Of a DNA stretch of 64,000 nt, positions 23,961 through 64,000 are shown piece after piece; the stretch's first letter is position 1, and each line of letters starts with the position of its first letter. Source of the DNA: Rugalucina vietnamica (Eukaryota; Mollusca; Bivalvia; Lucinida; Lucinidae). Below the pieces are notes generated by a model. It was not told where the DNA came from, made no database searches, and worked only from the letters and a program-made list of their open reading frames with translations. Position numbers and translations under genes: made by a program. Location: the NCBI GenBank assembly GCA_964017185.1, contig OZ024878.1, positions 14,889,351-14,953,350 of the forward strand, read 5' to 3'.

Positions 23961-24380
23961 CACCTTGTCGCTCCATGCAAATTGCCCTCCGCCTAAGTAT
24001 CTGCTATAATTCACATTTGAACAAACCATATAGGTTGACATTATTTGTTTGTACGCAAAGATTACAGCCTTATTATTTTGATTTTAGAATTAATATAAAA
24101 ATCAGTATTTATATGTGTATTTATAAGTACTTCTTAACACACACCATTCATGTATTTACCTATTTTATTAAGGTATATTTTAAAATACTACGCTCTAGTT
24201 GTGAATGGATAATTGATAGGTACGGCTTGTTCTGGCCGGCAAGTCTAGGCTTGGTTACTCAAGCAATGAATAAATGGGAAAACTTAAACTGAATTGTTTA
24301 TTTTTAGGCATTATTTACCGTTTATGAAACCGCGACATCCTGAGAAGATTTCACCATTTCAAACAATAAACAAGTAAGAG

Positions 24381-26812: not shown

Positions 26813-27255
26813 AAATTTTAGGATCTTCTAGTTTTATATACAGTAAGAGGTTTGCTTAATGGTCAGTCATATTATGATAGCTGAATTGTTATCAGTAGAA
26901 ATGGTGGAAATGAAAAGAAGAACGGTTTTATTTTTAATCTTTATTAATATAATTTCATGGGGACACAAAACATATAACGAACAAAATGCCATACGTGCAC
27001 ACCATGTACATTCTTGAAAACCACAGAATCATAACGTATGACGTAATTTATTGCGTCGTCCAAATAAGGATCACTTGTTAATGACATGATGACGAAATTG
27101 TAGAACAACACCTCTACCTTCAAAACACAACAGGATTTCCGGTGATTTTAGTAAATTCGCGGAATTTGTATTTAAATCCTTGTTTATAAAAATTTCATAA
27201 TCTAATGAGAAAAATATATTGCCGCATCTACCGAAAACATGAATTTAGCTGTGCT
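26813..27255. other. 3' flank of PLXDC-like copy 1
   Basis: AT-rich, with no canonical AATAAA close to the stop; TTTATTAATATAATTTC near 26939 is the nearest A/T-rich candidate end region. Homologous to 62860-63302. Confidence 0.5.
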
Positions 27256-27540
27256 CGACCAGATCCCGAGGTTATAAACTTTTTTCATGCTCAGCTCAGC
27301 TTAGACTAAAATTTATCCTGCCCATAAATGTTTAAATTTCCTATATACATGGGTACATCAAATATGTAACTGACCAGACTATTTTGTGGCACATATATTA
27401 GCAGGATAAATCACAGGCTTTTGTGATCTAAACCTGAAATTTCAATTTATTTTGGTCTATTTCAATACTTATGAGCAGTTTAAATTTCATGCTCAGCTGA
27501 GTTGAGCAAGAAAAAAATACAATTTCGGGACCTGGTCTGG
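27256..27540. mobile_element. CTCAGCTGAG MITE (family 4)
   Basis: About 50-bp inverted arms: CGACCAGATCCCGAGGTTAT..CATGCTCAGCTCAGC against CATGCTCAGCTGAGTTGAGC..TTTCGGGACCTGGTCTG. Non-coding. Same site occupied at 63303-63587; relics at 4931-5075 and 28498-28558. Confidence 0.8.
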
Positions 27541-28050
27541 TATATCCACGAAAGATTGCTTAGAGCATGAAAGCTCATACGTATTTCGTAACCAGAGAAA
27601 TGTTACCTTCTACGTAGCGAACGCAAATGCGCGTTTACTGCAAATGCGCGTTTACTGCGCACATGATAGATGCGTCTTTTTTCGAATGCTGACAAAGTAA
27701 AGTTTTCACTTGACGCGGGTCATTTTGATTTTTTATCATTTCACCATTTTAAAACATTCATTCATGACACTCAAACATGAAAATTAAAGTATATGATTAT
27801 TGCATGATACATGAACAAGTATAAATTATTGTCTAAAACAAAACATGAGATATGAGCAAAGTGATGCTGTATTTGAGCCACAAACATGACAAGGAGAAAA
27901 ACCATAACATCTTTTAACTAGAGAAAACATTAACCTGTATTGACTGGAATCTTAGTTTAGTTTTACTGAGAGGTCTTGGTAGATTATAGCTAATGAACTT
28001 CGGATAACGACCTGTCTGATCAGAATATGCAAATTCAGGTATTATTAATA
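27541..28050. other. No gene recognised
   Basis: Contains a direct repeat of GCAAATGCGCGTTTACTG at about 27628 and 27646. Otherwise AT-rich. The right-hand homolog runs to the window end and grows more diverged here. Confidence 0.5.
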
Positions 28051-32429: not shown

Positions 32430-34285
32430 TCTGAGGAAAACTATGTCCCCCCAACCGTTTAGTAATTGAAGTGTAGTTACCTTGTGATATGAAGTTTTTC
32501 TAGGGAAGACACCATGTAAGGTGTGATAGTTTAAACTTGTTTTGGACCCTGTCTAAAATTGGGTCACAATCACCAAATTCTTATAAACTCTGAACCTCCT
32601 CGCAACAATGCTTCTGAGCAAGTTTGGTCAAAATCCATCAATTAGTTTACAAGATATCGTATCGGAAAAACTAATTTCAACAGTTTTTATGGACCCGTGA
32701 CCTTGGAAATTAGGTCAAGGTCATCAAAATCTAATCAACTTTGAGCCTCCTCCAAACAATGCTTCTGTGCAAGTTTGGTCAAAATCCATCAACTGGTTTA
32801 CAAGATATTGCAGTGAAAAGACTAATTTCAACATTTTTTTATGGACTCGTGACCTTGAAAATTAGGTCAAGGTCACCGAAATCTAATCAACTCTGAGCCT
32901 TCTCGCAACAATGCTTCTGTGCAAGTTTGGTCAAAATCCATCAATTGGTTTACAAGTTATCGAGTTGGAAAGATTAATTTCAACATTTTTTATGGACTCG
33001 TGACCTTGAAAATTAGGTCAAGATCACCAAAATCTAATCAACTCTGAGCCTCCTCCCAACAATGCTTCTGTGCAAGTTTGGTCAAAATCCGTCAATTGAT
33101 TTACAAGATACTGCGTTGGAAAGACTAATTTCAACATTTTTTATGGACTTGTGACCTTGAAAATTAGGTCAAGGTCACCAAAATCTAGCCGACTCTGCGC
33201 CTTCTCGCAACAATGCTTCTGTACAAGTTTGGTCAAAATCCATCCATTCGTTTACAAGTTATCGCGTTGGAAAGACTAATTTTAACATTTTTTATGGACT
33301 TGTGACCTTGATTATTAGGTCAAGGTCACCAAAATATAATCAACTCTGAGCCTCCTCCCAACAATGCTTCTGTGCAAGTTTGGTCAAAATCCATTGATTG
33401 GTTTACAAGATACTGCATTGGAAAGACTAATTTCAACATTTTTTATGGACTCGTGACCTTGAAAATTAGATCAAGGTCACCAAAATCTAATCAACTCTGA
33501 GCCTTCTTGCAACAATGCTTCTGTGCAAGTTTGGTCAAAATCCATCTATTGGTTTACAAGTTATCGCGTTGGAAAGACTAATTTCAACATTTTTTATGGA
33601 CTCGTGACCTTGAAAATTCGGTCAAGGTCACCAAAATCTAATCAACTCTGAGCCTCCTCCCAACAATGCTTCTGTGCAAGTTTGGTCAAAATCCATCAAT
33701 AGGTTTACAAGATATTGCATTGGAAAGACTAATTTCAACAGTTTTTATGGACTCGTGACCTTGAAAATTAGGTCAAGGTCACCGAAATCTAATCAACTCT
33801 GAGCCTCCTCCCAACAATGCCCTTGTGCAAGTTTAGTCAAAATCCATTCATTTGTTCAGAAGATATCGCGTCGGAAAACCTAATTTGATCAGTTTTCATA
33901 GGCTGGTGACCTTGAAAATTAGGTCAAGGTCACCAAAATCTAATCAACTCTGAGCCTCCTCCCAACAATGCTCTTGTGCAAGTTTGCTCAAAATCCATTC
34001 ATTTGTTCAGAAGATATCGCGTCAGAAAACCTAATTTGATCAGTTTTCATGGGCTGGTGACCTTGAAAATGAGGTCAAGGTCACCAAAATCTAATCAACT
34101 CTTCCCCCCCTCCCAACCATGTATCTATGCAAGTTTGGTCAAAATCCATCCACTGGTTCAAAAGATATCGCGTAAGAAAGAAGCTACGCGGACGCGGACG
34201 CCGACGCGGACGCCGACGCCGACGCCGACGGGAACCGCACCAAAAACAATATGTCCCCCACCTTCGGTTGGGGGGACATAATTAT
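32430..34285. mobile_element. Pearl-like/Helitron-like tandem-array element, ~151-bp unit
   Basis: Eleven tandem units with period about 151 bp (GCAAGTTTGGTCAAAATCC at 32617, 32768, 32921 and on to 34130). They are followed by a GGACGC/CGACGC microsatellite (34186-34232) and a CCCCCACC..GGTTGGGGGG end hairpin next to GACATAAT. The left edge, near TATGTCCCCCCAACC, resembles the right hairpin arm. This array-plus-microsatellite order is known from bivalve pearl/HINE elements; the assignment rests on structure only. Each unit carries paired GTGACCTTGA and TCAAGGTCAC. Confidence 0.65.
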
Positions 34286-35940: not shown

Positions 35941-35944
35941 AGTT

Positions 35945-36135
35945 CAGTTAGTTTACGTCCCTTTCAACTTTATTTCGTCTCATATAAGACGGGCCAATCT
36001 CTAGGTGGGACGAATACGGGAGAACCCCGAGAAAAAACACTTGACACACCCGCAATCAGAACTTGGCTTGTCTCGCATGTGCCCAGTGCGGGTCTCGAAC
36101 CCACACAAGACAGCGGTGAGATGATCGAAATATTA
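35945..36135 (-). mobile_element. tRNA-derived SINE, GGGACGTAAA tail, minus strand
   Basis: Same family as 36303 and 43233. On the minus strand it carries a B box (complement of GGGTCTCGAACCC near 36089) and the conserved CACATGCGAGACAAGCC-type and GTCCCACC blocks. It ends in AAAGGGACGTAAAC. The head is truncated. Confidence 0.75.
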
Positions 36136-36302: not shown

Positions 36303-36545
36303 AGGCGGCTCCGTGGCCGTTTGGTTAAGAGCGCTTATTTCACAAACACGCTTAATCATTCGACCATCTCACGGCTGTGTCTGGCGTGGGCTCGAGCCCC
36401 ACACGGGGCACATGTGAGACAAGCCGGTCTGCTTGGGGGTCTGTCAGGTGTTTTTTCTAGGGCTTCTCCTGTTTTCGTCCCACCTAATGATCCTTCTCAC
36501 ATGAGCTGAAATAATATTGAAAGGGACGTAAAAATAAAACATTCG
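36303..36545 (+). mobile_element. tRNA-derived SINE, full length
   Basis: tRNA-like head with A box (GTGGCCGTTTGGTTAAGAGC near 36312) and B box (GGCTCGAGCCCC near 36389). Body with CACATGTGAGACAAGCC and TTTTCGTCCCACCTAATGAT, tail GAAAGGGACGTAAAAATAAA. Transcribed by Pol III if active. Confidence 0.8.
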
Positions 36546-37690: not shown

Positions 37691-38059
37691 AAGGCTACGG
37701 TATTTTCATGTGGCAGTCCATAAGACCGTGACATTTCTGCATGTATATAAAATTTGTGTTTGCATCACAAATCCTTTTTTAGGTCAAAAAAGTTAGCAGC
37801 TTGGCAGCATGGCAGGACGAAATTAGTAAGTTAGCAGGATGGCCGTACGGCTGGTTAAGTAAGTTAACAGCATGGCAGTATGGCCGAAGGAAATGTCAAT
37901 TAACCAGTGTGGTCGTACAAAAGACAAAAACGTAACATTAATAAAATAACTAAAATGCTCACAAATAATTGAAAAAATATATCTTATTTGCAAAATTAGT
38001 CCTGTTCGCAGGATGAATATAATGGACAGATGGGATTTCTGGAGAACCGTCCAGTGTAG

Positions 38060-41000
38060 GAAAAAATACATGCGCTGGTAGGGCTAACTGTCGAGTAGTA
38101 TAGCAGTATGGATTTTCAAAGTCTTGGCGGAACGGTGTCGGCAAAAGGCAAATTTCATCCTACTAGCAGCACGAAAATGACCAGCAGCATGGGATTTCTG
38201 GAGAACCGTTCAATGTAGGAAAACGCTTTATATCTCTAAATGCATGCGCTGGTAGGGCTAACTGTCGAGTAGTATAGCAGTATGGATTTTCATCGTCTTG
38301 GCGGAACGGTATCGGCAAAAGGCAAATTTCGTCCTGCTAGCAGCACGAAAATGACCAGCAGCATGGGATTTCTGGAGAACCGTTCAATGTAGGAAAACGC
38401 TTTATATCTCTAAATGCATGCGCTGGTAGGGCTAACTGTCGAGTAGTATAGCAGTATGGAAACTATCGTCTTGGCAGAACAGTATCGGCAAAAGGCAAAT
38501 TTCGTCCTGCTAGCTGCATGAAAATGACCAGCAGCATGGGATTTCTGGAGAACCGTCAAATGTAGGAAAACGCTTTATATCTCTAAATACATGCGCTGGT
38601 AGGGCTGACTGTCGAGTAGTATAGCAGTATGGATTTTCATCGTCTTGGCGGAACGGTGTCGGCAAAAGGCAAATTTCATCCTGCTAGCAGCACGAAAATG
38701 ACCAGCAGCATGGGATTTCTGGAGAACCGTTCAATGTAGGAAAACGCTTTATATCTCTAAATGCATGCGCTGGTAGGGCTAACTGCCGAGTAGTATAGCA
38801 GTATGGATTTTCATCGTCTTGGCGGAACGGTATCGGCAAAAGGCAAATTTCGTCCTGCTAGCAGCATGAAAATGACCAGCAGCATGGGATTTCTGGAGAA
38901 CCGTCCAATGTAGGAAAACGCTTTATATCTCTAAATGCATGCGCTGGTAGGGCTAACTGTCGAGTAGTATAGCAGTATGGATTTTCATCGTCTTGGCGGA
39001 ACGGTATCGGCAAAAGGCAAATTTCGTCCTGCTAGCAGCATGAAAATGACCAGCAGCATGGGATTTCTGGAGAACCGTTCAATGTAGGAAAACGCTTTAT
39101 ATCTCTAAATACATGCGCTGGTAGGGCTAACTGTCGAGTAGTATAGCAGTAAGGATTTTCAAAGTCTTGGCGGAACGGTGTCGGCAAAAGGCAAATTTCA
39201 TCCTGCTAGCAGCACGAAAATGACCAGCAGCATGGGATTTCTTGAGAACCGTTCAATGTAGGAAAACGCTTTATATCTCTAAATGCATGCGCTGGTAGGG
39301 CTAACTGTCGAGTAGTATAGCAGTATGGATTTTCATCGTCTTGGCAGAACGGTATCGGCAAAAGGCAAATTTCGTCCTGCTAGCAGCATGAAAATGACCA
39401 GCAGCATGGGATTTCTGGAGAACCGTCCAATGTAGGAAAACGCTTTATATCTCTAAATACATGCGCTGGTAGGGCTAACTGTCGAGTAGTATAGCAGTAT
39501 GGATTTTCAAAGTCTAGGCGGAACGGTGTCGGCAAAAGGCAAATTTCATCCTGCTAGCAGCACGAAAATGACCAGCAGCATGGGATTTCTGGAGAACCGT
39601 TCAATGTAGGAAAACGCTTTATATCTCTAAATGCATGCGCTGGTAGGGCTAACTGTCGAGTAGTATAGCAGTATGGATTTTCATCATCTTGGCGGAACGG
39701 TATCGGCAAAAGGCAAATTTCGTCCTGCTAGCAGCATGAAAATGACCAGCAGCATGGGATTTCTGGAGAACCGTCCAATGTAGGAAAACGCTTTATATCT
39801 CTAAATGCATGCGCTGGTAGGGCTAACTGTCGAGTAGTATAGCAGTATGGATTTTCATCGTCTTGGCGGAACGGTATCGGCAAAAGGCAAATTTCGTCCT
39901 GCTAGCAGCATGAAAATGACCAGCAGCATGGGATTTCTGGAGAACCGTTCAATGTAGGAAAACGCTTTATATCTCTAAATACATGCGCTGGTAGGGCTAA
40001 CTGTCGGGTAGTATAGCAGTATGGATTTTCAAAGTCTTGGCGGAACGGTGTCGGCAAAAGGCAAATTTCATCCTGCTAGCAGCACGAAAATGACCAGCAG
40101 CATGGGATTTCTGGAGAACCGTTCAATGTAGGAAAACGCTTTATATCTCTAAATGCATGCGCTGGTAGGGCTAACTGTCGAGTAGTATAGCAGTATGGAT
40201 TTTCATCGTCTTGGCAGAACGGTATCGGCAAAAGGCAAATTTCGTCCTGCTAGCAGCATGAAAATGACAAGCAGCATGGGATTTCTGGAGAACCGTTCAA
40301 TGAAGGAAAACGCTTTATAACTCTAAATACATGCGCTGGTAGGGCTAAATGTCGAGTAGTATAGCAGTATGGATTTTCAACGTCTTGGCGGAACGGTGTC
40401 GGCAAAAGGCAAATTTCATCCTGCTAGCAGCACGAAAATGACCAGCAGCATGGGATTTCTGGAGAACCGTTCAATGTAGGAAAACGCTTTATATCTCTAA
40501 ATGCATGCGCTGGTAGGGCTAACTGTCGAGTAGTATAGCAGTATGGATTTTCATCGTCTTGGCGGAACAGTATCGGCAAAAGTCAAATTTCGTCCTGCTA
40601 GCAGCATGAAAATGACCAGCAGCATGGGATTTCTGGAGAACCGTCCAATGTAGGAAAACGCTTTATATCTCTAAATGCATGCGCTGGTAGGGCTAACTGT
40701 CGAGTAGTATAGCAGTATGGATTTTCATCGTCTTGGCGGAACGGTATCGACAAAAGGCAAATTTCGTCCTGCTTGCAGCATGAAAATGACCAGCAGCATG
40801 GGATTTCTGGAGAACCGTTCAATGTAGGAAAACGCTTTATATCTCTAAATACATGCGCTGGTAGGGCTAACTGTCGTGTAGTATAGCAGTATGGATTTTC
40901 AAAGTCTTGGCGGAACGGTGTCGGCAAAAGGCAAATTTCATCCTGCTAGCAGCACGAAAATGACCAGCAGCATGGGATTTCTGGAGAACCGTTCAATGTA

Positions 41001-42641
41001 GGAAAACGCTTTATATCTCTAAATGCATGCGCTGGTAGGGCTAATTGTCGAGTAGTATAGCAGTATGGATTTTCATCGTCTTGGCAGAATGGTATCGGCA
41101 AAAGGCAAATTTCGTCCTGCTAGCTGCATGAAAATGACCAGCAGCATTGGATTTCTGGAGAACCGTCCAATGTAGGAAAACGCTTTATATCTCTAAATAC
41201 ATGCGCTGGTAGGGCTAACTGTCGAGAAGTATAGCAGTATGGATTTTCATCGTCTTGGCGGAACGGTGTCGGCAAAAGGCAAATTTCATCCTGCTAGCAG
41301 CACGAAAATGACCAGCAGCATGGGATTTCTGGAGAACCGTTCAATGTAGGAAAATGCTTTATATCTCTAAATGCATGCGCTGGTAGGGCGAACTGTCGAG
41401 TAGTATAGCAGTATGGATTTTCATCGTCTTGGCGGAACGGTATCGGCAAAAGGCAAATTTCGTCCTGCTAGCAGCATGAAAATGACCAGCAGCATGGGAT
41501 TTCTGGAGAACCGTCCAATGTAGGAAAAAACTTTATATCTCTAAATGCATGCGCTGGTAGGGCTAACTGTCGAGTAGTATAGCAGTATGGATTTTCATCG
41601 TTTTGGCGGAACGGTATCGGCAAAAGGCAAATTTCGTCCTGCTAGCAGCATGAAAATGACCAGCAGCATGGGATTTCTGGAGAACCGTTCAATGTAGGAA
41701 AACGCTTTATATCTCTAAATACATGCGCTGGTAGGGCTAACTGTCGAGTAGTATAGCAGTATGGATTTTCAAAGTCTTGGCGGAACGGTGTCGGCAAAAG
41801 GCAAATTTCATCCTGCTAGCAGCACGAAAATGACCAGCAGCATGGGATTTCTGGAGAACCGTTCAATGTAGGAAAACGCTTTATATCTCTAAATGCATGC
41901 GCTGGTAGGGCTAACTGTCGAGTAGTATAGCAGTATGGATTTTCATCGTCTTGGCAGAACGGTATCGGCAAAAGGCAAATTTCGTCCTGCTAGCAGCATG
42001 AAAATGACCAGCAGCATGGGATTTCTGGAGAACCGTCCAATGTAGGAAAACGCTTTATATCTCTAAATACATGCGCTGGTAGGGCTAACTGTCGAGTAGT
42101 ATAGCAGTATGGATTTTCATCGTCTTAGCGGAACGGTATCGGCAAAAGGCAAATTTCGTCCTGCTAGCAGCATGAAAATGACCAGCAGCATGGGATTTCT
42201 GGAGAACCGTCCAATGTAGGAAAACGCTTTATATCTCTAAATGCATGCGCATGTAGGGCTAACTGTCGAGTAGTATAGCAGTATGGATTTTCATCGTCTT
42301 GGCGGAACGGTATCGGCAAAAGGCAAATTTCGTCCTGCTAGCAGCATGAAAATGACCAGCAGCATGGGATTTCTGGAGAACCGTCCAATGTAGGAAAACG
42401 CTTTATATCTCTTAATACATGCGCTGGTAGGGCTAACTGTCGAGTAGTATAGCAGTATGGATTTTCAAAGTCTTGGCGGAACGGTGTCGGCAAAAGGCAA
42501 ATTTCATCCTGCTAGCAGCACGAAAATGACCAGCAGCATGGGATTTCTGGAGAACCGTTCAATGTAGGAAAACGCTTTATATCTCTAAATGCATGCGCTG
42601 GTAGGGCTAACTGTCGAGTAGTATAGCAGTATGGATTTTCT
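38060..42641 (+). repeat. 174-bp satellite array, left arm, about 26 units
   Basis: Unit landmarks: ATGCGCTGGTAGGGCTAACT, GTCGAGTAGTATAGCAGTAT, TCTTGGCGGAACGG, CGGCAAAAGGCAAATTTC, ATGACCAGCAGCATGGGATT, CTGGAGAACCGT, AACGCTTTATATCTCTAAAT. Units fall into type A (AAAGTCTTGG..GTGTCGG..CACGAAAA) and type B (CATCGTCTTGG..GTATCGG..CATGAAAA). They recur in a five-unit order, an 870-bp higher-order repeat. Not coding; frames across it are artefacts. Confidence 0.95.
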
Positions 42642-43230
42642 ATATGACTTTTTTCTATACCTGGCTTAAAATTAATCAATGTTTGAAATATTGGTAACCC
42701 CGCACCATGACCTCAAAAGGGGTAGACGTGGGGGGATATGGTAATCTGTATTTCCAATATTGATTTTTTTGTAAGCTGGAAACCATCTGGTAATGCAAAA
42801 ATGGCGAATAAAACCATTTAAAAAAAATAAATAAAAAAAATACACCACATAAGATCCACCTTTTTGCCAAGGCCAACTGAGTGAGGCTCATATCTAATGT
42901 ATCAGCTTTAAAAATGCTTCCTATCAACTCATGCTGGTATTTCTGTGGAGGAGCTTTGGGTCATCTTTACTGGTTGCCGCTTTGCATGAGTGTACGTAGC
43001 TGTTAAATATCACTCCACTGTGTTACTCAGGAAAATAAGCAACAGATCAGTTGTACACCGCATATAAGGCATCTAGAGATCTAGGAAGGAATAAAAGCTT
43101 CTTGGATCTGCGACGGCAAACAAAACGGAAAAAATACAACATTATTCTCACTGCGAAGGTCTTCTCGGCCTCGGCAACAATGATGGTCATGTGACATGGA
43201 AACATTATTTAGTTTATCTTCTGAAAACAT
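42641..43230. other. Loop of the foldback element: unique sequence
   Basis: The satellite stops abruptly after GTATGGATTTTC. No gene was recognised. A short A-rich run lies near 42820. Confidence 0.5.
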
Positions 43231-43232
43231 TT

Positions 43233-43470
43233 GGCGGCCCCCGTGGCCGAGTTATTAAGGTCGCTGACTTCAGTGCTCTTGATCATTCGATCATCTCACC
43301 GCTGTGGGTTCGTCCTCGCACGGGGCACGAGTCACATGTGAGACAAGCCAAGTTCTGCTTGCGGGTGTGTCAGGTGGTTTTTCCCCGGGTATGCCGGGTT
43401 TCGTCCCACCTAATAATTGATTCGTCTCGATATGAGTGAAAAAGCTTGAAAGGGACGTAAAACTGAATCC
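43233..43470 (+). mobile_element. tRNA-derived SINE in the foldback loop
   Basis: Head GGCGGCCCCCGTGGCCGAGT; B box GGGTTCGTCCTC, diverged. Body CACATGTGAGACAAGCCAAG; tail GAAAGGGACGTAAAACTGAA. Same family as 36303. Confidence 0.75.
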
Positions 43471-43539
43471 AAAAAAAGAAAACTCCAAAAAGGACCAACA
43501 TGGCCCTGTTCGCTAGACTCATCATCAGGACTTTCATCT

Positions 43540-43740
43540 GTGCCGGGTCTTTGCCAGATAATGTCACAAAAGACTGGTCTCTTGCTAATACGTATTTGCG
43601 CCCTGTTGAAGAAAGGTGACAGGTCTCTGGCTCGCAATTACCACCCTGTTGCTTTGACTTGCAATCACTTGCATCCCAAGAAAGCTCCATGAAAAGAGTG
43701 TATGTTCAAATATTATGACCCATCAAAATGTTTGTGGGAC
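43540..43740 (+). pseudogene. LINE reverse transcriptase relic
   Basis: The plus-strand frame ICALLKKGDRSLARNYHPV-ALTC (about 43587-43665) matches the conserved KKGDRS..NYRPVSLT motif at the start of many non-LTR reverse transcriptase domains. A stop follows within about 30 codons and the catalytic core is missing. Lies just after a SINE. Confidence 0.65.
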
Positions 43741-43789
43741 AGCATCAGATTGCATTTGGTAGAAAAATGTAAAACTCGCGAAACGGGGT

Positions 43790-44290
43790 CTCCGACGAAA
43801 CCAAGTAGAGTTGCCCAGTGAGTGTGTTTCGGTGGCTTGGTGTGGCCTCTGGTACAGCAGCATGGATTTTTGGAAACTTGGCAGAACAGCAGGGCTCGAA
43901 GCGTTTCTTTTGGCTAAAAGAAAATACGAATACCACGCTCCAGCAGGATGAGATTAATACTGGAGAACCAAGTAGTTTTGGAAATCGCTGTATATCACTG
44001 GCTGTTTGCATTGGACAGATAAACAGACGAGTACCACAGCAGCATGGATCTTCTGAACGTTGCTTGGACAGTTTCCGTCCAAAAGTGGCATCGGACTGCT
44101 TTTGTTCAAAAAGTGCATAACTCGTGAAACGGGGTTTCCGACCAAACAAGCAGAGCTGAGAAACGGTTCTCAGCCCAATGAGTGTGTTTCTATGGCTTGG
44201 TGTGGTCTCTGGTACAACAGCATGGATTTTCGGAAACTTGGCAGAACTGCGGGTTCGAAGGGTTTCTTTTGGCTACAAGTAAATGCAAAT
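43790..44290 (+). repeat. Diverged ~178-bp satellite relatives, left part
   Basis: AGCAGCATGGATTTTTGGAA..CTTGGCAGAAC and CTGGAGAACCAAG correspond to landmarks of the 174-bp unit, in left-arm orientation. Units pair into a ~357-bp dimer (GTGTGTTTCGGTGGCTTGG near 43822; variant near 44181). Confidence 0.7.
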
Positions 44291-45325
44291 ATCCCAGTCA
44301 GCATTGCAATAGGGGACCGCTGACGGCCCGCTAATATTTGCATAGCGGCCCGCTAACTAGTTTTCTGCAGTGGCCCACCGGTGGATGTGAAAACTCGGCC
44401 CGCTGTCGGAAAAACGCTATGTTGCCGCGATGTTGCCCCCATTGTACCGACATGCAAAATATTAAGAAATTAGAAGTTTATTAATATCAAAAAATATCAC
44501 ATAGTTTTGCATTTGGAATTTTCGAAAACGAAGAATCGGTGTGTTTTAGGGCATGAATTAAGACATGCCCATGAACACGCAAGATGTACTCAACATCAGA
44601 GGCGTTTTTATGAATTAATTACTTTTCCATGTGTGTATATATATAATAAAAATTTATTTCGAAGATGAAGTGCCATGAGATTGACCGAAACAAGTAATAC
44701 ACTTAGAAAAGTTAAATAATTGATAGTCAGAATCACTCTCTGTTATGAATTATCATTTACATATTTATTTAAACACCTTTATTTAAGAACAATGTGTAAA
44801 ATAATGAAAATTCGATGTTATCGATTTTTGTTGTTTCCCTTTAATAAAGTGGCAGCCGTTGGGCCGACTTGACGGGCCGAGAGCGGGCCCTCTTGTGTTT
44901 TTGTTTGTTACATTTTGTGTTACGTTTGTGAAACACTCAATGATCCAGCACTCATTAAATAATTGAGTTATAGTTATATGAGGAAGCAAGGATTTATCGT
45001 TCAAGCATCAGCTTTTTGTAGGGCATTGTCCTATTTCGTGCCCCTGGCGGGCCGTCGTTGGGCCGATATGCCAAGATGTCGCTGACGGACCGCCAGCGGC
45101 CCGCTTTCTGCTCTAAGAGAATGTGAATTTCTTTCAGAGATCAAATAATTTTCTTTCTTTGCCATTTCTACCTAATGTAGAAATGCATTAATGTCAATTC
45201 CTGGAACTGAGATGTATTTTTGTCAGACAATTTGTTATTTCGGGCCCCTGACGGGCCGTCATGGGGCCGATATGCCGCGATGCCCACTTAATGCCGCTGA
45301 CGGGCCGATATATGCATGCTGGCTA
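44291..45325. mobile_element. 1.0 kb element nested in the foldback loop
   Basis: Candidate termini CCAGTCAGCATTGCAATA and inverted TATATGCATGCTGGCT share CAGCAT..GCA. Subterminal GACGGGCCGT/GGCCCGCTAA words repeat at both ends. It interrupts the diverged satellite between GCAAATA and ATACCAAGCTTCAGC, where the uninterrupted copy reads CGAATACCACGCTCCAGC. Confidence 0.55.
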
Positions 45326-45943
45326 TACCAAGCTTCAGCAGGATGTGATTACTGGAGAACCAAGAAGTGTTGAAAGTCGCTATTTATCACTGGCCTGTTT
45401 GGACAGATAAACTGGTGAGTACCATAGCAGCATGGATCTTTTTAACAGTGCCTGGACAGTAGCCGCCCGAAAGTGGCATCGGACTGCATTTGGTCGAAAA
45501 AGTGCAGAACTCGTGAAATGGGGTTTCTGAACCAAACCAAAGCTTCAAAACGGTTCTCAGCCCAATGAGTGTGTTTCGATGGCTTGGATTGTCCTCTGGT
45601 ACAGCAGCATGGATTTTCGGAAACTTGGCAGAACAGCAGGGCTCGAAGCGTTTTTTTTTGGCTACAAGAAAAGCGAATACCACGCTCCGGTAGGATGGGA
45701 TTACTGGAGAACCAAGTAGTTTTGGAAATCGCTGTATATCACTGGCTGTTCGCAATGGACAGATAAACAAGCGAGTACTATAGCAGGATGGATCTTTTGA
45801 ACGTTGCCTGAGCAGTAGCTATCCAAAAGTGGCTTCGGACTGCATTTGGTCGAAACGGGCAAAACTCGTGAACAGGGGTATCGGACCATACCAAGCAGAG
45901 TTATCAAACGGCCCTTAGCCAAGTGACCGTGTTTAGATGGCTT
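45326..45943 (+). repeat. Diverged satellite relatives, right part, up to the inversion point
   Basis: Continues the ~357-bp dimer in left-arm orientation (GTGTGTTTCGATGGCTTGG near 45568). At about 45943 the sequence flips directly into the inverted 174-bp array (TCTCCAGAAATCCCATGCTG). Confidence 0.7.
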
Positions 45944-48900
45944 CTCCAGAAATCCCATGCTGCTGGTCATTTTCGTGCTGCTAGCAGGATGAAATTTGCC
46001 TTTTGCCGACACCGTTCCGCCAAGACTTTGAAAATCCATACTGCTATACTACTCGACAGTTAGCCCTACCAGCGCATGCATTTAGAGATATAAACCGTTT
46101 TCCTACATTGGACGGTTCTCCAGAAATAGAGGAAAATGGTCATTTTCATGCTGCTAGCAGGACGAAATTTGCCTTTTGCCGATACCGTTCCGCCAAGACG
46201 ATGAAAATCCATACTGCTATACTACTCGACAGTTAGCCCTACCAGCGCATGCATTTAGAGATATAAAGCGTTTTCCTACATTGAACGGTTCTCCAGAAAT
46301 TCCATGCTGCTGGTCATTTTCGTGCTGCTAGCAGGATGAAATTTGCCTTTTGCCGACACCGTTCCGCCAAGACTTTGAAAATCCATACTGCTATACTACT
46401 CGACAGTTAGCCTAACCAGCGCATGTATTTAGAGATATAAAGCGTTTTCCTACATTGGACGGTTCTCCAGAAATCCCATGCTGCTGGTCATTTTCATGCT
46501 GCTAGCAGGACGAAATTTGCCTTTTGCCGATACCGATCCGCCAAGACGATGAAAATCCATACTGTTATACTACTCGACAGTTAGCCCTACCAGCGCATGT
46601 ATTTAGAAATATAAAGCGTTTTCCTACATTGGACGGTTCTCCAGAAAACCCATGCTGCTGGTCATTTTCATGCTGCTAGCAGGACGAAATTTGCCTTTTG
46701 CCGATACCGTTCCGCCAAGACGATGAAAATCCATACTGCTATACTACTCGACAGTTAGCCCTACCAGCGCATGTATTTAGAGATATAAAGCGTTTTCCTA
46801 CATTGGACGGTTCTCCAGAAATACCATGCTGCTGGTCATTTTCATGCTACTAGCAGGACGAAATTTGCCTTTTGCCGATACCGTTCCGCCAAGACTTTGA
46901 AAATCCATACTGCTATACTACTCGACAGTTAGCCCTACCAGCGCATGCATTTAGAGATATAAAGCGTTTTCCTACATTGAACGGTTCTCCAGAAATCCCA
47001 TGCTGCTGGTCATTTTCGTGCTGCTAGCAGGATGAAATTTGCCTTTTGCCGACACCGTTCCGCCAAGACTTTGAAAATCCATACTGCTATACTACTCGAC
47101 AGTTAGCCCTACCAGCGCATGTATTAAGAGATATAAAGCGTTTTCCTACATTGGACGGTTCTCCAGAAATCCCATGCTGCTGGTCATTTTCATGCTGCTA
47201 GAAGAACGAAATTTGCCTTTTGCCGATACCGTTCCGCCAAGACGATGAAAATCCATACTGCTATACTACTCGACAGTTAGCCCTACCAGCGCATGCATTT
47301 AGAGATATAAAGCGTTTTCCTACATTGAGCGGTTCTCCAGAAATCCCATACTGCTGGTCATTTTCGTGCTGCTAGCAGGATGAAATTTGCCTTTTGCCGA
47401 CACCGTTCCGCCAAGACTTTGAAAATCCATACTGCTATACTACTCGACAGTTAGCCCTACCAGCGCATGTATTTAGAGATATAAACCGTTTTCCTACATT
47501 GGACGTTTCTCCAGAAATCCCATGCTGCTGGTCATTTTCATGCTGCTAGCAGGACGAAATTTGCCTTTTGCCGATACCGTTCCGCCAAGACGATGAAAAT
47601 CCATACTGCTATACTACTCGACAGTTAGCCCTACCAGCGCATGCATTTAGAGATATAAAGCGTTTTCCTACATTGAACGGTTCTCCAGAAATCCCATGCT
47701 GCTGTTCATTTTCATGCTGCTAGCAGGACGAAATTCGCCTTTTGCCGACGCCGTTCCGCCAAGACGATGAAAATCCATACTGCTATACTACTCGACAGTT
47801 AGCCCTACCAGCGCATGCATTTAGAGATATAAAGCGTTTTCCTACATTGAACGGTTCTCCAGAAATCCCATGCTGCTGGTCATTTTCGTGCTGCTAGCAG
47901 GATGAAACTTGCCTTTTGCCGACACCGTTCCGCCAAGACTTTGAAAATCCATACTGCTATACTACTCGACAGTTAGCCCTACCAGCGCATGTATTTAGAG
48001 ATATAAAGCGTTTTCCTACACTGGACGGTTCTCGAGAAATCCCATGCTGCTGTTCATTTTCATGCTGCTAGCAGGACGAAATTTGCCTTTTGCCGATACC
48101 GTTCCGCCAAGACAATGAAAATCCATACTGCTATACTACTCGACAGTTAGCCCTACCAGCGCATGCATTTAGAGATATAAAGCGTTTTCCTACATTGAAC
48201 GGTTCTCCAGAAATCCCATGCTGCTGGTCATTTTCGTGCTGCTAGCAGGATGAAATTTGCCTTCTGCCGACACCGTTCCGCCAAGACTTTGAAAATCCAT
48301 ACTGCTATACTACTCGACAGTTAGCCCTACCAGCGCATGCATTTAGAGATATAAACCGTTTTCCTACGTTGGACGGTTCTCCAGAAATCCCATGCTGCTG
48401 GTCATTTTCATGCTGCTAGCAGGACGAAATTTGCCTTTTGCCGATACCGTTCCACCAAGACGATGAAAATCCATACTGCTATACTACTCGACAGTTAGCC
48501 CTACCAGCGCATGCATTTAGAGATATAAAGCGTTTTCCTACATTGAACGGTTCTCCAGAAATCCCATGCTGCTGGTCATTTTCGTGCTGCTAGCAGGATG
48601 AAATTTGCCTTTTGCCGACAACGTTCCGCCAAGACTTTGAAAATCCATACTGCAATACTACTCGACAGTTAGCCCTACCAGCGCATGCATTTAGAGATAT
48701 AAACCGTTTTCCTACATTGAACGGTTCTCCAGAAATCCCATGCTGCTGGTCATTTTCGTGCTGCTAGCAGGATGAAATTTGCCTTTTGCCGACACCGTTC
48801 CGCCAAGACTTTGAAAATCCATACTGCTATACTACTCGACAGTTCGCCCTACCAGCGCATGTATTTAGAGATATAAAGCGTTTTCCTACATTGGACGGTT

Positions 48901-50995
48901 CTCCAGAAATCCCATGCTGCTGGTCATTTTCATTCTGCTAGCAGGACGAAATTTGCCTTTTGCCGATACCGTTCCGCCAAGACTTTGAAAATCCATACTG
49001 CTATACTACTCGACAGTTCGCCCTACCAGCGCATGTATTTAGAGATATAAACCGTTTTCCTACATTGGACGTTTCTCCAAAAATCCCATGCTGCTGGTCA
49101 TTTTCATGCTGCTAGCAGGACGAAATTTGACTTTTGCCGATACCGTTCCGCCAAGACGATGAAAATCCATACTGCTATACTACTCGACAGTTAGCCCTAC
49201 CAGCGCATGCATTTAGAGATATAAAGCGTTTTCCTACATTGAACGGTTCTCCAGAAATCCCATGCTGCTGGTCATTTTCGTGCTGCTAGCAGGACGAAAT
49301 TTGCCTTTTGCCGACACCGTTCCGCCAAGACTTTGAAAATCCATACTGCTATACTACTCGACAGTTAGCCCTACCAGCGCATGTATTTAGAGATATAAAC
49401 CGTTTTCCTACATTGGACGGTTCTCCAGAAATCCCATGCTGCTGGTCATTTTCATGCTGCTAGCAGGACGAAATTTGACTTTTGCCGATACCGTTCCGCC
49501 AAGAAGATGAAAATCCATACTGCTATACTACTCGACAGTTAGCCCTACCAGCGCATGCATTTAGAGATATAAAGCGTTTTCCTACATTGAACGGTTCTCC
49601 AGAAATCCCATGCTGCTGGTCATTTTCATGCTGCTAGCAGGACGAAATTTGCCTTTTGCCGATACCGTTCCGCCAAGACTTTGAAAATCCATACTGCTAA
49701 ACTACTCGACAGTTAGCCCTACCAGCGCATGCAGTTAGAGATATAAAGCGTTTTCCTACATTGAACGGTTCTCCAGAAATCCCATGCTGCTGGTCATTTT
49801 CGTGCTGCTAGCAGGATGAAATTTGCCTTTTGCCGACACCGTTCCGCCAAGACTTTGAAAATCCATACTGCTATACTACTCGACAGTTAGCCCTACCAGC
49901 GCATGTATTTAGAGATATAAAGCGTTTTCCTACATTGGACGGTTCTCCAGAAATCCCATGCTGCTGGTCATTTTCATGCTGCTAGCAGGACAAAATTTGC
50001 CTTTTGCCGATACCGTTCCGCCAAGACGATGAAAATCCATACTGCTATACTACTCGACAGTTAGCCCTACCAGCGCATGCATTTAGAGATATAAAAGGTT
50101 TTCCTACATTGAACGGTTCTCCAGAAATCCCATGCTGCTGGTCATTTTCGTGCTGCTAGCAGGATGAAATTTGCCTTTTGCCGACACCGTTCCGCCAAGA
50201 CTTTGAAAATCCATACTGCTATACTACTCGACAGTTAGCCCTACCAGCGCATGCATTTAGAGATATAAAGCGTTTTCCTACATTGGACGGTTCTCCAGAA
50301 ATCCCATGCTGCTGGTCATTTTCGTGCTGCTAGCATGATGAAAATTGCCTTTTGCCGACACCGTTCCGCCAAGACTTTGAAAATCCATACTGCTATACTA
50401 CTCGACAGTTAGCCCTACCAGCGCATGTATTTAGAGATATAAACCGTTTTCCTACATTGGACGTTTCTCCAGAAATCCCATGCTGCTGGTCATTTTCATG
50501 CTGCTAGCAGGACGAAATTTGCCTTTTGCCTATACCGTTCCGCCAAGACGATGAAAATCCATACTGCTATACTACTCGACAGTTAGCCCTACCAGCGCAT
50601 GCATTTAGAGATATAAAGTGTTTTCCTACATTGAACGGTTCTCCAGAAATCCCATGCTGCTGGTCATTTTCGTGCTGCTAGCAGGATGAAATTTGCCTTT
50701 TGCCGACACCGTTCCGCCAAGACTTTGAAAATCCATACTGCTATACTACTCGACAGTTAGCCCTACCAGCGCATGTATTTAGAGATATAAACCGTTTTCC
50801 TACATTGGACGGTTCTCCAGAAATCCCATGCTGCTGGTCATTTTCATGCTGCTAGCAGGACGAAATTTGCCTTTTGCCGATACCGTTCCGCCAAGACTTT
50901 TAATATCCATACTGCTATACTACTCGACAGTTAGCCCTACCAGCGCATGTATTTAGAGATATAAACCGTTTTCCTACATTGAAAGATTCTCCAGA
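45944..50995 (-). repeat. 174-bp satellite array, right arm, about 28 units, inverted
   Basis: Same unit as the left arm in reverse complement (AGTTAGCCCTACCAGCGCAT, TTTGCCGATACCGTTCCGCC). A and B types are both present. The A-B-A-B-B order appears at 46024-46720 and again at 47067-47763, then becomes irregular. Confidence 0.95.
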
Positions 50996-51459
50996 AATCC
51001 CATCTTTCCGGATATTCATCCTGCGAAGAGGACGAATTTTGCAAATTAGATATATATTTTTTTTAATTTGTGAGCATTTTAGTTATTTTAATGGTACGTT
51101 TTTGTCTTTTGTACGACCACACTGGTTAAATGATATTTCATTCGGCCATACTGCCATGCTGCTTACTTACTAATTTCGTCCTGCCATGTTGCCAAGCTGC
51201 TAACTTTACCGAATTCATTCTGCCATGCTGCCATGCTGCTAACTTTACAAAATTCATTCTGCCATGCTGCTAACTTTTCGGCGCCTCCTTTTTTCTGAAA
51301 ATTGTCAATTTGCACACCGCCGCGACTATACCTTTATCTTAAATTAAAAAGAAATTGGAAATTCGTTCCAATAATTTGTTATTAGGAACTTTAAAAATAA
51401 TATCTATAATAAACGTTTTTTTCTTAGTGCTTCCCGCAAACGTGCAGAAAAAGTAATTA

Positions 51460-53503
51460 TCATACTATAATTTGAGCAACGTTTGTCTGTTTGTTTGTTT
51501 GTTTGTTTGTTCCCCTACTCCTCCCAGGTCCTTGGGCCGATCTTCACCAAACTTGGAGGGAAGGTGGAGGGCGGCCCCGGATATGACCTTGAGGGGTTCA
51601 TTATTTGAAAGGTCAAGGTCATCAAGGTCAAAGGTCAAATTTGTTTTTTTTTCTCTGTTTGTTCCCCTACTCCTCCCAGGTCCTTGGGCCGATCTTCACC
51701 AAACTTGGAGGGAAGGTTGAGGGCGGCCCCAGATATTAGCTCGAGGGGTTCATTTTTCCAAAGGTCAAGGTCATCGAGGTCAAAGGTCAAATTTCTGTAT
51801 CTCGGCAGTCCTTGGTCCGATTTGCATGAAACTTGGTGAGTGTATACAGGGCGGCCCCGGATATTAGCTCGATGGGTTAATTATTTAAAAGGTCAAGGTC
51901 ATCGAGGTCAAAGGTCAACTTTCTGTATCTCAGCAGTCCTTGGTCCGATTTGCATGAAAATTGCTGAGTGTATACAGGTTGATCCCTGATTAAGATTTAT
52001 GGGTCCAATTGCGTCAAAGGTCATCGAGGTCAAAGATCAAATTTATCGGGTTTTTTCTGTTGGTCATGTTTTTTTCTGTTTGTTCCCCTACTTCTCCCAG
52101 GTCCTTGGGCCGATCTTCAACGAACTTCCGGATATTAGCTCGAGGGATTCATTTATTTAAGGTCAAGGTCATCGAGGTCAAAGATCAAATTTCTATATCT
52201 CAGCAGTCCTTGGTCCGATTTACATAAAACTTGGTGAGTGTGTACAGGTTGATCCCTGATTAAGATTTATGGGTCCAATTGGGTCAAAGGTCATCGAGGT
52301 CAAAGGTCAAATTTATGGGTTTTTTCTGTTTGTTCCTCCCAGGTCCTTGGGCCAATCTTCACCAAACTTGGTGGGAAGGTTGAGGGCGGCCCAAGATATT
52401 AGCTGGAGGGGTTCATTTTTCCAAAGGTCAATATCATCGAGGTCAAAGGTCAAATTTCTGTATCTCGGCAGTCCATAGTCCGATTTGCATGAAACTTGGT
52501 GAGTGTATACAGGGCGGCCCCGGATATTAGCTCGATGGGTTAATTATTTAAAAGGACAAGGTCATCGAGGTCAAAGGTCAAATTTCTGTATCTCAGCAGT
52601 CCTTGGTCCGATTTGCATGAAACTTGCTGAGTGTATACAGGTTGATCCCTGATTAAGATTTATGGGTCCAATTGGGTCAAAGGTCATCGAGGTCAAAGGT
52701 CAAATTTATGGTTTTTTTCTGTTGGTCATGTTTCTTTTTCTGTTTGTTCCCCTACTTCTCCCAGGTCCTTGGGCCGATCTTCACCGAATTTCCGGATATT
52801 AGCTCGAGGGATTCATTTATTAAAGGTCAAGGTCATAGAGGTCAAATGTCAAATTTCTATATCTCAGCAGTCCTTGGTCCGATTTACATAAAACTTGGTG
52901 AGTGTATACAGGTTGATCCCTGATTAAGATTTATGGGTCCAATTGGGACAAAAGTCATCGAGGTCAAAGGTCAAATTTATGTTGTTTTTTTCTGTTTGTT
53001 TCTCCCAGGTCCTTGGGCCAATCTTCACCAAACTTGGTGGGAAGGTTGAGGGAGGCCCTGGATTTTAGCCGAAGGGTTCATTTTTTAAAGGTCAAGGTCA
53101 TCGAGGTCAAAGGTCAAATTTCTGTAACACGGCAGTCCTTGGTCTGATTTGCATGAAAGTTGGTTAGTGTACACGGGTTGATCCCTGATTAAGATTTATG
53201 GGTCCAATAGGGTCAAAGGTCAAATTTATGTTGTTTTTTTCTTTGTTCCTCCCAGGTCCTTGGGCCGATCTTCACCAAACTTGGAGGGAAGGTGGAGGGC
53301 AGCCCCGGATATTAGCTTGAGGGTTTCATTTTTTGAAAGGTCAAGGTCATCGAGGTCAAAGGTCAAATTTGTCATTTTTTTTCTCTTTTCCTCTGTGTAT
53401 GTCTTATTTGAGATTGTGTGAGTGTGTGTGTATGTGGGTATCTTATTTGTCTTCATCGCCGCAATCATCTTACTGCTACGTCGAGACGGGTAAAATTTAC
53501 TAG
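51460..53503 (+). mobile_element. Helitron-type element, 2,044 bp
   Basis: Begins TCATACTATAATTTGAG and ends TTTACTAG. A short CGTC-GA-GACG hairpin lies 11 bases before CTAG. It is inserted between A and T with no duplication. The homologous left site (22593-22615) reads GTAATTA|TTTACTATAATTGG, exactly the two flanks joined. TC..CTRR ends, a subterminal hairpin and A/T insertion are the Helitron hallmarks. The interior is tandem repeats of a ~130-bp and ~660-bp nested period, with GGTCCTTGGGCCGATCTTCA and ATCGAGGTCAAAGGTCAAAT. No Rep/helicase, so non-autonomous. Confidence 0.8.
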
Positions 53504-59821: not shown

Positions 59822-60427
59822 CAGGGTTATATCTATTTTCTTATTTTCTATCCAAAACATAGATTGTGAGTACTCATTAGAACCGCCGCAATGTTTTCGA
59901 CAGAACTATATAAAATATCAAATTCATTCCAATGAAAGTTTCAAATTTTACAGAGGAAAAACATCGGGCCTGTTTTCTGCATGAGCAATTTTCCGATAAT
60001 GGCACCACCTTGTCGCTCCATGCAAATTGCCCTCCGCCTAAGAATCTACTATAATTCACATTTGAACAAACCATATAGGTTGACATGCAAAGATTACAGC
60101 CTTATTATTTTGATTTTAGAATTAATATACAAATCTCAGTATTTATATGTGTATTTTTAAGTACTTCTTAACACACACCATTCATGTATTTACCTATTTT
60201 ATTAAGTATATTTTAAAATACTACGCTCTAGTTTGCTGAATCACTGTGTGAATGGATAATGGATAGGTACGGCTTGTTCTGGCCGGCAAGTCTAGGCTTG
60301 GTTACTCAAGCAATGAATAAATGGGAAAACTTAAACTGAATTGTTTATTTTTAGGCATTATTTACCGTTTATGAAACAGCGACATCCTGAGAAGATTTCA
60401 CCATTTCAAACAATAAACAAGTAAGAG

Positions 60428-62859
60428 ATGATCATGATTTTCTTCGTAAAATTTTACTTGTGTTTCGTGATATACGTTTCCTGTATGCTTTACTCCGCTG
60501 GGAGAGGTAAGTGCTTCATCTTACTGTCTTTATTCATTCTGACTTTGAATGGTGAAGCTGTCCTAAATAAAACAAAATGAGCCTGTGCGTGAGAAAACCA
60601 ACGATTTTGGGTTCAGACCAGGTCCGACACAGAAGATGGCTAGAGGATTAAGGAAGAAGAGGAATTGCACTATTCGTGCCAGCGAAAACAAAGGCGCGGA
60701 TCAGCTTCGCAGTCTGCGCCTTTGTTTTCGCCTGCTGCTCAGCTTCGCAGTTACTGCGAAGCTTATCCGCGCCTTTGTTTTCACCTAGGCATATTGTTGG
60801 TTTTCTATTAACAAAAATAGATGCATGTATTAGAAAAAAATGACATAAAAGCGCGTCTCGTTCATTGCAAGTCAATATAGTCTTATACATTTTATTTTCT
60901 GGTATTTTTAAAAACATGTAAAACATGCGCATATTTAACAAAGTCAACTTACCTGAATTGCAAGTGAGCTGAAATTCCAGTTTGCTCTCAATGTGCAAGG
61001 GGTTTGGTTTTTGCCCTGTATTCAATCATTACTTTTCAGACGCTAGTGACGCACAGCAGGATATTCAGTTTGTAAGACTACGCCACCGCAGACAAGCTAC
61101 CTCGAGTGATGAAACAAGTATACTCTCTTCAACAACCGCGGGTTCACCGTTCACAACTCCTTCTTCAATAGGTGAAACAAGCACACTCTCTTCCGCGACC
61201 TCGGGTCCACAACTCACTTCAACTGACGTAAACAACACATTTTCATCAACGACAACGGGTCCACAAACCTCAGTTCCTACATCACATGACGAAAGCATTT
61301 CATTCTCATCAACGGCTACTGTTCCAAAATCGCTGATCTCTGAAACATCTTATAGGTACTACACTTCCCGTGTTTACAAGACACCAGTATTAGTGGACAC
61401 ATTGTGGGAAGAGCTGGGCGAAACCAACATTATCGTTCCTTTGTCTGATTCTTATAGAATCGCGATTACAGTTTATCCACCTTTTAATTACACATTTTAC
61501 GGTCAAAGGGTAGGGAGCATTACCATAAACACTGGCGGGTTTCTTTATACGAGCGATTTTATACATCAGTGGCTTTCCGCCACAAACTATATTGCTCCTT
61601 TAATGGCGAATTTTGATACTAGGCTTGGGGGAGATCGGTCTGTGATCCTGTATAAAGCTTTTGACTCGAGGCTTGTTGTAGAATACAAAGACGTGTTCCT
61701 CCGTGAGCAGAATGAAACCAGCGACGAACCATTTCATTTTCAGTGTATTTTACACCAAAATGGTACCATAGTTTTCCTGTATAAAAAGATACCTATCCCC
61801 GTGTCTGAAATCAGTGCTAGGAACCACCCAATGAAAATAGGACTATCTGATGCATATTATATTGATAGTAATATAACTGGTACCACACGAAGAACAATAT
61901 ATGAATACAGTAGAATTGAAATAGACAAAAGTGTCATAGACGACGGTGTTGTTGTTATACTTACTCCGTTGCCAACTTGCAATACAGCAACTGATTGTGA
62001 AACTTGTTTAACAATGACAACTGACTTTACTTGCAAGTGGTGCTCTGCTGTTCGAAGATGCTCGAGCGGACTAGATAGGTACTTTGACGACTGGTTAAAA
62101 GCTGACTGCGTTGGCACAGCCACATCGGAAACCTGTACCCAAAGTACATCATCGTCAACATATACAACAGAGCGATCTACAGAAGCTTTATATGGAAACG
62201 AAACAACGCTTGCTCAACCATCAAACTCCACATTGACTTCATCATTACTCAGTGTAACAACGTCATATGCTGACACCCATGAAAACGGCACTACGTTTTC
62301 GCAAGGGTTAACGTCACTTATTACATCTTCTGTATCAGAAGAAACATCAACGACGAAGCCGTCATCCATAGGAGTTTCAATATCATCGACAGAGAACACA
62401 ACAACACTGTCTTTCGACAATGCTACGACGTCTCCGCAACGTACAGAATCAACGGCGTCATATCCGGCATCAAACGCTTCAATAGAACCTTTGTCAACAG
62501 TAGCACATTCAACGACCAATAATGAAGCATCAACATCTAGTTCAACAGCATCTCAGTCAACAATTATACAAAAAACATCGGCCGATGCAACACTGTCGAA
62601 ACTGTTATCCACAATCAAATCAACAACGCCAAAAGTGTCAGACAGAGCATCGACGATTTCACAAAGTGACGCCTCAACTACAATGCATCCTGCAACCCAG
62701 AATACTACGACATTGGCGAATCGTTTTTCTTCCACAATAGGGTTTACAACATACGGTCCAATTTCAAAAGGACACAGAACTTTATCAATAATGTTCAATG
62801 TTTTTATATCCAGCAGTATATTGTTTGCTAGACTGATTTTAAACAGCGATCTTATCTAG
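60428..62859 (+). CDS. PLXDC/TEM7-like protein, copy 2, two exons
   Basis: Same structure and lengths as the copy at 24381: exon 1 60428-60506 (signal peptide), intron 60507-61039 (533 bases), exon 2 61040-62859, 632 residues. Differences found in the coding sequence: Ala197Thr, Thr317Ser, Asn380Lys and one silent TCA/TCT change near 62178. All PSI cysteines and the nidogen-like landmarks are kept, so both copies should be functional if expressed. Flanks diverge more than the exons. May be a paralog or the second allele. Confidence 0.85.
60578..60810. mobile_element. Hairpin MITE family 1 in the copy 2 intron
   Basis: Orthologous to 24531-24761, with a single visible hairpin change restoring pairing (CTTTGTTTTCGCC here, CTTTATTTTCGCC there). 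Confidence 0.85.
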
Positions 62860-63302
62860 AAATTTTAGGATCTTCTAGTTTTATATACAGTAAGAGGTTT
62901 GCTTAATGGTCAGTCATATTATGATAGCTGAATTGTTATCAGTAGAAATGGTGGAAATGAAAAGAAGAACGGTTTTATTTTTAATCTTTATTAATATAAT
63001 TTCATGGGGACACAAAACATATAACGAACAAAATGCCATACGTGCACACCATGTACATTCTTGAAAACCACAAAATCATAACGTATGACGTAATTTATTG
63101 CGTCGTCCAAATAAGGATCACTTGTTAATGACATGATGACGAAATTGTAGAACAACACCTCTACCTTCAAAACACAACAGGATTTCCGGTGACTTTAGTA
63201 AATTCGCGGAATTTGTATTTAAATCCTTGTTTATAAAAATTTCATAATCTAATGAGAAAAATATATTGCCGCATCTACTGAAAACATGAATTTAGCTGTG
63301 CT

Positions 63303-63587
63303 CGACCAGATCCCGAGGTTATAAACTTTTTTCATGCTCAGCTCAGCTTAGACTAAAATTTATCCTGCCCATAAATGTTTAAATTTCCTATATACATGGG
63401 TACATCAAATATGTAACTGACCAGACTATTTTGTGGCACATATATTAGCAGGATAAATCACAGGCTTTTGTGATCTAAACCTGAAATTTCAATTTATTTT
63501 GGTCTATTTCAATACTTATGAGCAGTTTAAATTTCATGCTCAGCTGAGTTGAGCAAGAAAAAAATACAATTTCGGGACCTGGTCTGG
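63303..63587. mobile_element. CTCAGCTGAG MITE (family 4), copy 2
   Basis: Same element at the same site as 27256-27540, with inverted CGACCAGATCCCG and GGGACCTGGTCTG arms. Confidence 0.8.
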
Positions 63588-64000
63588 TATATCCACGAAA
63601 GATTGCTTAGAGCATGAAAGCTCATACGTATTTCGTAACCAGAGAAATGTTACCTTCTACGTAGCGAACGCAAATGCGCGTTTACTGCAAATGCGCGTTT
63701 ACTGCGCACATGATAGATGCGTCTTTTTTCGAATGCTGACAAAGTAAAGTTTTCTCTTGACGCGGCTCATTTTGATTTTATATCATTTCACCATTTTAAA
63801 ACATTCATTCATGACACTCAAACATGAAAATTGAAGTATATGATTGTTGCATGATACATGAACAAGTATAAATCATTATCTAAAACAAAACATGAGATAT
63901 GAGCAAAGTGATTCTGTATTTGAGCCCCAAACATGGCAAGGAGAGAAAACATAACATCCGTTTTAACTAAAGAAAACCGTTGATTAACCTGTATTGAATT

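Follow-up and report, generated by a model that had tools for sequence, protein, structure and literature searches.

Can a satellite DNA be spread through a genome as the arms of a transposon? The question is raised by a 64,000-nucleotide stretch of the lucinid bivalve Rugalucina vietnamica (assembly GCA_964017185.1, contig OZ024878.1, positions 14,889,351 to 14,953,350 of the forward strand; hereafter the window), in which a 13.5 kb block at 37781-51285 had been proposed, from its letters alone, to be a giant foldback-like transposon with satellite arrays as inverted arms. A search of the window's own genome (1.09 Gb in 47 contigs) found at least 30 loci, the window included, that share both block ends, and 23 of 30 are bounded by an exact 9-bp target-site duplication (TSD). 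We consider it very likely that the block belongs to a family of non-autonomous cut-and-paste foldback transposons with a 9-bp TSD, whose satellite arms lie inside the transposed unit and whose transposase is supplied in trans, most likely by a Mutator-like element (MULE).

The two arms of the window block, 4,860 bp on the left (37781-42640) and 5,344 bp on the right (45942-51285), are inverted relative to each other, with 37789-42640 aligning to 51246-46377 at 94.7% identity, in keeping with the predicted 4.9-5.3 kb. Each is composed of a flanking domain of about 205-240 bp and 26-29 copies of a 174-bp satellite; the 26-28 copies per arm of the original prediction describe the left array correctly and fall slightly short of the right. 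The predicted 9-bp duplication, TCCTTTTTT, is directly repeated outside both block ends, and the predicted empty site was located at about 22432, where a paralogous segment at 22.3-22.6 kb has both flanks (93-95% identity) and lacks the block. There, 22344-22432 matches the left flank (37692-37780) at 93.3%, and 22432-22617 matches the right flank (51289-51472) at 94.7%. The empty site reads TCC, T11, CCCC and then CTGAAAA, with a longer T-run plus CCCC; it is 8 bases longer than a clean single TSD copy predicts, the extra bases lying within the low-complexity tract. The features of the block and its surroundings, with tandem copy numbers from Tandem Repeats Finder (TRF), are as follows.

22424-22432, + strand: empty site (TCCTTTTTT within TCC-T11-CCCC) on the paralogous left segment, from the flank matches
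37772-37780, + strand: left TSD, TCCTTTTTT
37781-37787, + strand: asymmetric left end motif AGGTCAA, outside the inverted repeat; starts 27 of 30 copies
37788-37989, + strand: left flanking domain, part of the inverted repeat by its alignment to the right end; AGCAGCATGG-like modules recur in it
37990-42640, + strand: left satellite array, 174-bp unit (TRF: period 174, 26.3 copies, 38064-42640)
42641-43670, + strand: left part of the middle, not at this position in the C2 copy (C2a)
43671-45941, + strand: middle common to the window and the C2 copy, 97.8% identity
45942-51045, - strand: right satellite array, inverted (TRF: period 174, 29.1 copies, 45942-51003)
51046-51278, - strand: right flanking domain, with tandem repeats of about 39 bp at 51137-51270
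51279-51285, + strand: asymmetric right end motif CGGCGCC; closes 28 of 30 copies
51286-51294, + strand: right TSD, TCCTTTTTT

The left 210 bp (37781-37990) has at least 41 genome matches and the right 240 bp (51046-51285) at least 40, both lower bounds since 40 candidates were scored of 72 and 122, respectively. Ends that share a contig and are correctly oriented to each other were paired into elements. The shortest of the 30 measures 570 bp and the longest 63,434 bp, the median being 21.9 kb and the summed length 749,780 bp. Another left end and three more right ends have no partner, and at four loci the end is a variant that starts GGCGACG. An end-core pattern, allowed up to three mismatches, occurs at 116 genome sites and its reversed form at none; among the 100 of these sites listed, C2:40775101, C4:1721464 and C17:5570180 lie outside known copies and variant ends. 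A 22-base end sequence had no exact match in IMG/VR. Two of the variant ends (L038 and L040, on C16 and C13) have nearly the same 60-base outer flank, and the element end there seems to have been copied within a larger repeat.

The TSDs, likewise anticipated by the original prediction, were compared with a control in which left flanks were set against the right flanks of other loci: none of the 870 mismatched pairs was exact, and none agreed at 8 or more of 9 positions, which rules out chance as the source of the duplications. Four additional copies have a near-TSD, of 9 bp with seven extra bases on the right (C17), 9 bp with one base missing at the left end (C14a), 9 bp beside a shortened right end (C4c) and 8 bp (C9). 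The letters of the TSDs display no clear preference except for A and T. While the window TSD is of low complexity, which had counted slightly against it, the exact TSDs of the family are mostly complex, and with these and the empty control the low complexity is no longer a weakness. The inverted repeat begins inside the seven unlike terminal bases, and over 29 copies (C16c excluded) mean identity is 97.2% for left ends and 97.6% for right ends.

Had the block been a local inverted duplication of satellite, or a product of misassembly, its situation in a locally duplicated region and its simple TSD would fit; the 30 loci with the same ends, 23 of them with exact and mostly complex TSDs, leave that explanation practically no probability. 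An assembly artefact is very unlikely given independent loci on many contigs, and both it and a simple inverted duplication were ruled out as candidates on the 30 independent loci with TSDs. A Helitron/Helentron (HINE) type was excluded by the TSDs and the inverted arms; elements of that type are not known to make a TSD.

The satellite was compared across 615 full monomers from nine copies, which display 95-97% identity within arms, between arms and between copies alike. For 35% of the 615 the closest monomer belongs to the copy they come from, no clustering by copy was found among them, and there is no strong homogenisation of monomers by copy. All five best-conserved monomer 30-mers contain AGCAGTATGG. 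One conserved 30-mer, present in 99% of the 615 monomers (up to two mismatches), has 2,865 matches genome-wide against 0 for the control, and ten copies contain 642 of these. A rough scaling by readable length (about 176 kb vs about 712 kb) predicts near 2,600 matches for the 30 elements, an estimate that excludes unpaired ends and variant loci. The first 100 listed places of the 30-mer, all exact and all on C1, fall in a paired copy (77) or at an unpaired right end (23). Because the observed count is close to the estimate for elements alone and the C1 list agrees, the satellite is, as far as count and list go, mostly or wholly element-borne in this assembly. The proposal that it is the arm of a mobile element is thus sustained by the family, and precedents exist in Tetris and the oyster HINE.

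Besides the window, copies C13a, C2a, C8a, C8b, C12 and C6 (part of which reads N) were read wholly or nearly so, together with three short copies. As predicted, arm length is variable, from 1-2 to about 99 monomers among the copies read, counting partial matches: the two arms hold about 72/36 monomers in C13a, 31/32 in C2a, 54/99 in C8a, 31/68 in the readable part of C6, 39/43 in C8b and 30/18 in C12. Arm length reaches about 17 kb. At the other extreme, C4d consists of two arrays (20 and 17 monomers) back to back, and C4c (1.65 kb, eight monomers) and C16c (570 bp) are hardly more than ends; all three are without a middle. A core of 5-7 kb is common to C13a, C2a, C8a and C6, mostly at 95-99% identity with insertions and deletions, and ends in an inner domain of diverged satellite relatives that adjoins the right array.

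Comparison of the window with C2a suggests how the smaller form may have arisen. The order in C2a is left array, the shared middle, a seven-monomer inverted array, a nested insertion, core, inner domain and right array. Both copies have exactly the same junction from middle to inverted array, with an odd second monomer in each; after it, the window array continues to the right end, and C2a has the short array, more DNA and the core. The window copy has the appearance of a larger C2a-type structure that has lost its core, which on the simplest reading would have been removed by recombination between two arrays in the same orientation. Diverged satellite relatives lie in the window middle at 43742-44291 and 45325-45941, and a repeat in its left part (43233-43467) has two relatives at 35943-36129 and 36304-36533. 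Stop-to-stop open reading frames (ORFs) of 175 and 143 aa in the window middle had no Pfam match, and a search of the window against Rfam had none.

Two interruptions within copies were observed alongside. At 44310-45330 the window middle is broken by a segment whose edges repeat a GGCCCGC/GCGGGCC-like sequence (judged by eye), perhaps a nested element. The insertion nested in C2a, 16 kb long (C2:65876866-65892979, L019-L021), sits in an (AT)n tract. Its 230-bp inverted ends are 100% identical, its tandem arrays (128-bp and 210-bp) run both ways, and it has an ORF matching GIY-YIG (2.8e-09), as Penelope-like elements do; it is possibly another palindromic, satellite-bearing element.

The same variation could have a different history, in which small elements inserted and their arrays then grew at fixed sites, the large units never having moved as such. 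Monomer number does vary widely among copies and between arms, at least two copies amount to ends and a handful of monomers, and transposition efficacy is said in a review to fall above 6 kb of cargo, although artificial systems moved cargoes of 100-200 kb (PMC6431247). Yet each of the five copies of at least 36 kb is flanked by an exact TSD and matches the ends of another copy at 99% or more, monomers resemble those of other copies as closely as those of their own, and four large copies share the core (about 95-99%). The mixing of monomers across copies and the shared core imply that large structures were copied, and growth in place alone appears unlikely. A stronger proposal holds that this non-coding transposon moves as a unit of 14-63 kb, that the satellite arms are transposase-binding arrays, and that the satellite is kept and dispersed only by transposition; it is tentative, possible rather than probable.

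For the non-autonomous foldback transposon, the proposed sequence of events would begin with a transposase in trans, most likely of a MULE, that recognises the element by its ends and generates the 9-bp TSD on insertion. The 174-bp satellite arrays, lying within the transposed unit, would travel with it; unequal recombination would alter array length, and recombination between arrays of the same orientation would delete the internal core and give forms like the window copy. Modules that recur in the flanking domain, and perhaps those of the monomer too, may be where the transposase binds. We infer the recombination mechanism, the MULE in trans and the role of AGCAGBATGG-type modules in flanking domain and monomer as transposase-binding sites.

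The motif AGCAGBATGG was picked after looking at the sequences. One flanking domain has a single occurrence and the other three, each monomer has two, and the diverged repeats of the window middle have two and three; the orientation never differs, and 29.7 kb of flanking DNA has none. A 13-base module common to flanking domain and monomer, in opposite orientation, exceeds shuffles (0 of 200). The THAP domain of Galileo is described as binding repeats in that element's long arms (PMC3688188), and the candidate binding sites offer a lead.

The structural class is of foldback type: long inverted arms of tandem repeats, variable in length, with dispersed copies and a TSD of fixed length. That half of the superfamily claim in the original prediction stands; the MULE half is unproved and still derives from TSD length and architecture. 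The 9-bp TSD falls in the 8-11 bp range given for MULEs (PMC6446971), the ends are Tm1-like, and most foldbacks seem, according to the Tetris report, to belong to Mutator (PMC4079207); on these grounds mobilisation by a Mutator-like transposase acting in trans is probable.

Several observations weigh against the reading as a MULE-mobilised foldback transposon. Three of the 30 copies (C5b, C13d and C12) have no TSD worth the name. The C2a copy may, as an alternative, have gained the core, the reverse of core loss in the window. Compared in the same orientation, flanking domain and monomer resemble each other no more than shuffles do (34/200 and 16/200 reach the score). The MULE domain PF10551 has 59 genome matches, 55 of them without an internal stop, and none lies inside the 30 elements, the large copies being mostly read at their ends only. 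No transposase domain was found in the ORFs scanned from the copies read, a selection in which part of C6 reads N; among 15 ORFs from other copies, two matched GIY-YIG above cut-off and four others matched only below curated cut-offs. The family is treated as non-autonomous as a working call.

The MULE match nearest to an element end lies 5.9 kb outside the unpaired left end on C11, with none nearer among the 100 of 116 end-core sites listed. As a partner it was dismissed as coincidence, the other three equal-scoring matches having no listed end within 100 kb. A separate GIY-YIG ORF (1e-07; L037:5665-6147), in an unpaired copy on C12, continues straight into satellite monomer sequence.

TSDs are 7 bp long for Galileo and 8 bp for hAT elements, a point that bears on whether the same mobile foldback element might use a transposase of another superfamily (P/Galileo-like, Merlin or hAT) or of an undescribed one. 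The 7-8 bp TSDs of the P superfamily do not match the length here, 9 bp in 23 of 30 copies and 8 bp in one. A non-MULE source of transposase would accord with the lack of a MULE gene match in the 30 copies and with the origin of foldback structures with differing transposases, such as Galileo with a P-type enzyme (PMC3169594), but neither the 9-bp TSDs nor an end design as in Tm1, whose transposase is a MULE (PMC3169594), favours it, and we regard it as improbable.

Several known systems are close in design. Tetris of Drosophila virilis, compared here by description, has inverted arms that are each made up of flanking, tandem-repeat and inner domains. It codes for no protein, its TSDs are 8-10 bp long, its transposase was reportedly not found and it is assigned to Mutator by TSD size; the repeats of its arms, about 220 bp long, are related to a satellite (PMC4079207). 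Its arms are at most 1,735 bp with few repeats, whereas here arms reach about 17 kb and elements 63 kb, and arrays of its satellite also occur apart from the element, whereas here the satellite seems confined to elements (PMC4079207). Tm1 (Mutator/Foldback) of root-knot nematodes also makes 9-bp TSDs and has asymmetric 7-bp motifs that lie outside its inverted repeat, arms containing tandem repeats, and short forms resembling miniature inverted-repeat transposable elements. It is smaller, about 1-2.3 kb, its repeats measure 13-15 bp, and one copy has a Phantom-type MULE transposase, of which none was found in the copies here (PMC3169594). Rehavkus, related to Mutator, has a 9-bp TSD, long inverted repeats and a minisatellite in the element; by contrast, its minisatellite is described before the 3' end only, its terminal inverted repeats span 26-400 bp, and it encodes a transposase with a PHD finger (PMC6446971). 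Galileo of Drosophila resembles the element in its long, internally repetitive inverted arms with repeated transposase-binding sites (PMC3688188), but belongs to the P superfamily. Cg_HINE Helentrons of the Pacific oyster are also non-autonomous mobile elements that spread satellite-like arrays, but with central repeats and of Helentron type, in contrast to the inverted arms and 9-bp TSDs here (PMC7492417).

The tie between satellite and foldback is already known, from the account of Tetris (PMC4079207). New here are the extreme size, with arms to about 17 kb and elements to 63 kb, the satellite-only arms and the many young copies; in the open-access library searched, the titles and abstract openings listed described no foldback elements with comparable arms or lengths. 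A satellite riding in a dispersing transposon, with TSDs as proof, makes the long-debated origin and spread of satellites testable in one genome. The family also touches the size limit of cut-and-paste elements, with 27 of 30 copies longer than 13 kb; no Pack-MULE in one survey exceeded 7 kb, according to a review (PMC6431247), and units of 14-63 kb, if they do move as such, would well exceed the size at which these elements are thought to work. Mirrored arms of near-identical repeats, several kilobases long and on many chromosomes, would probably invite ectopic recombination and inversion, and probably also give rise to hairpin RNA.

Elsewhere in the window, a diverged local duplication relates 19724-28000 to 35184-64000, within which 23786-27943 matches 59829-63997 at 98.3%. 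Both duplicates contain a 628-aa open frame (24926-26812 and 60973-62859), the first without a Pfam match. An open frame at 57-1079 matches rhodopsin-type G protein-coupled receptors (7tm_1, 1.4e-38), with tandem duplicates nearby (552-2768). Other tandem arrays occupy 32555-34181 and 51488-53370, with periods of about 151 and 128-271 bp, the latter array beginning about 200 bp beyond the right end of the element.

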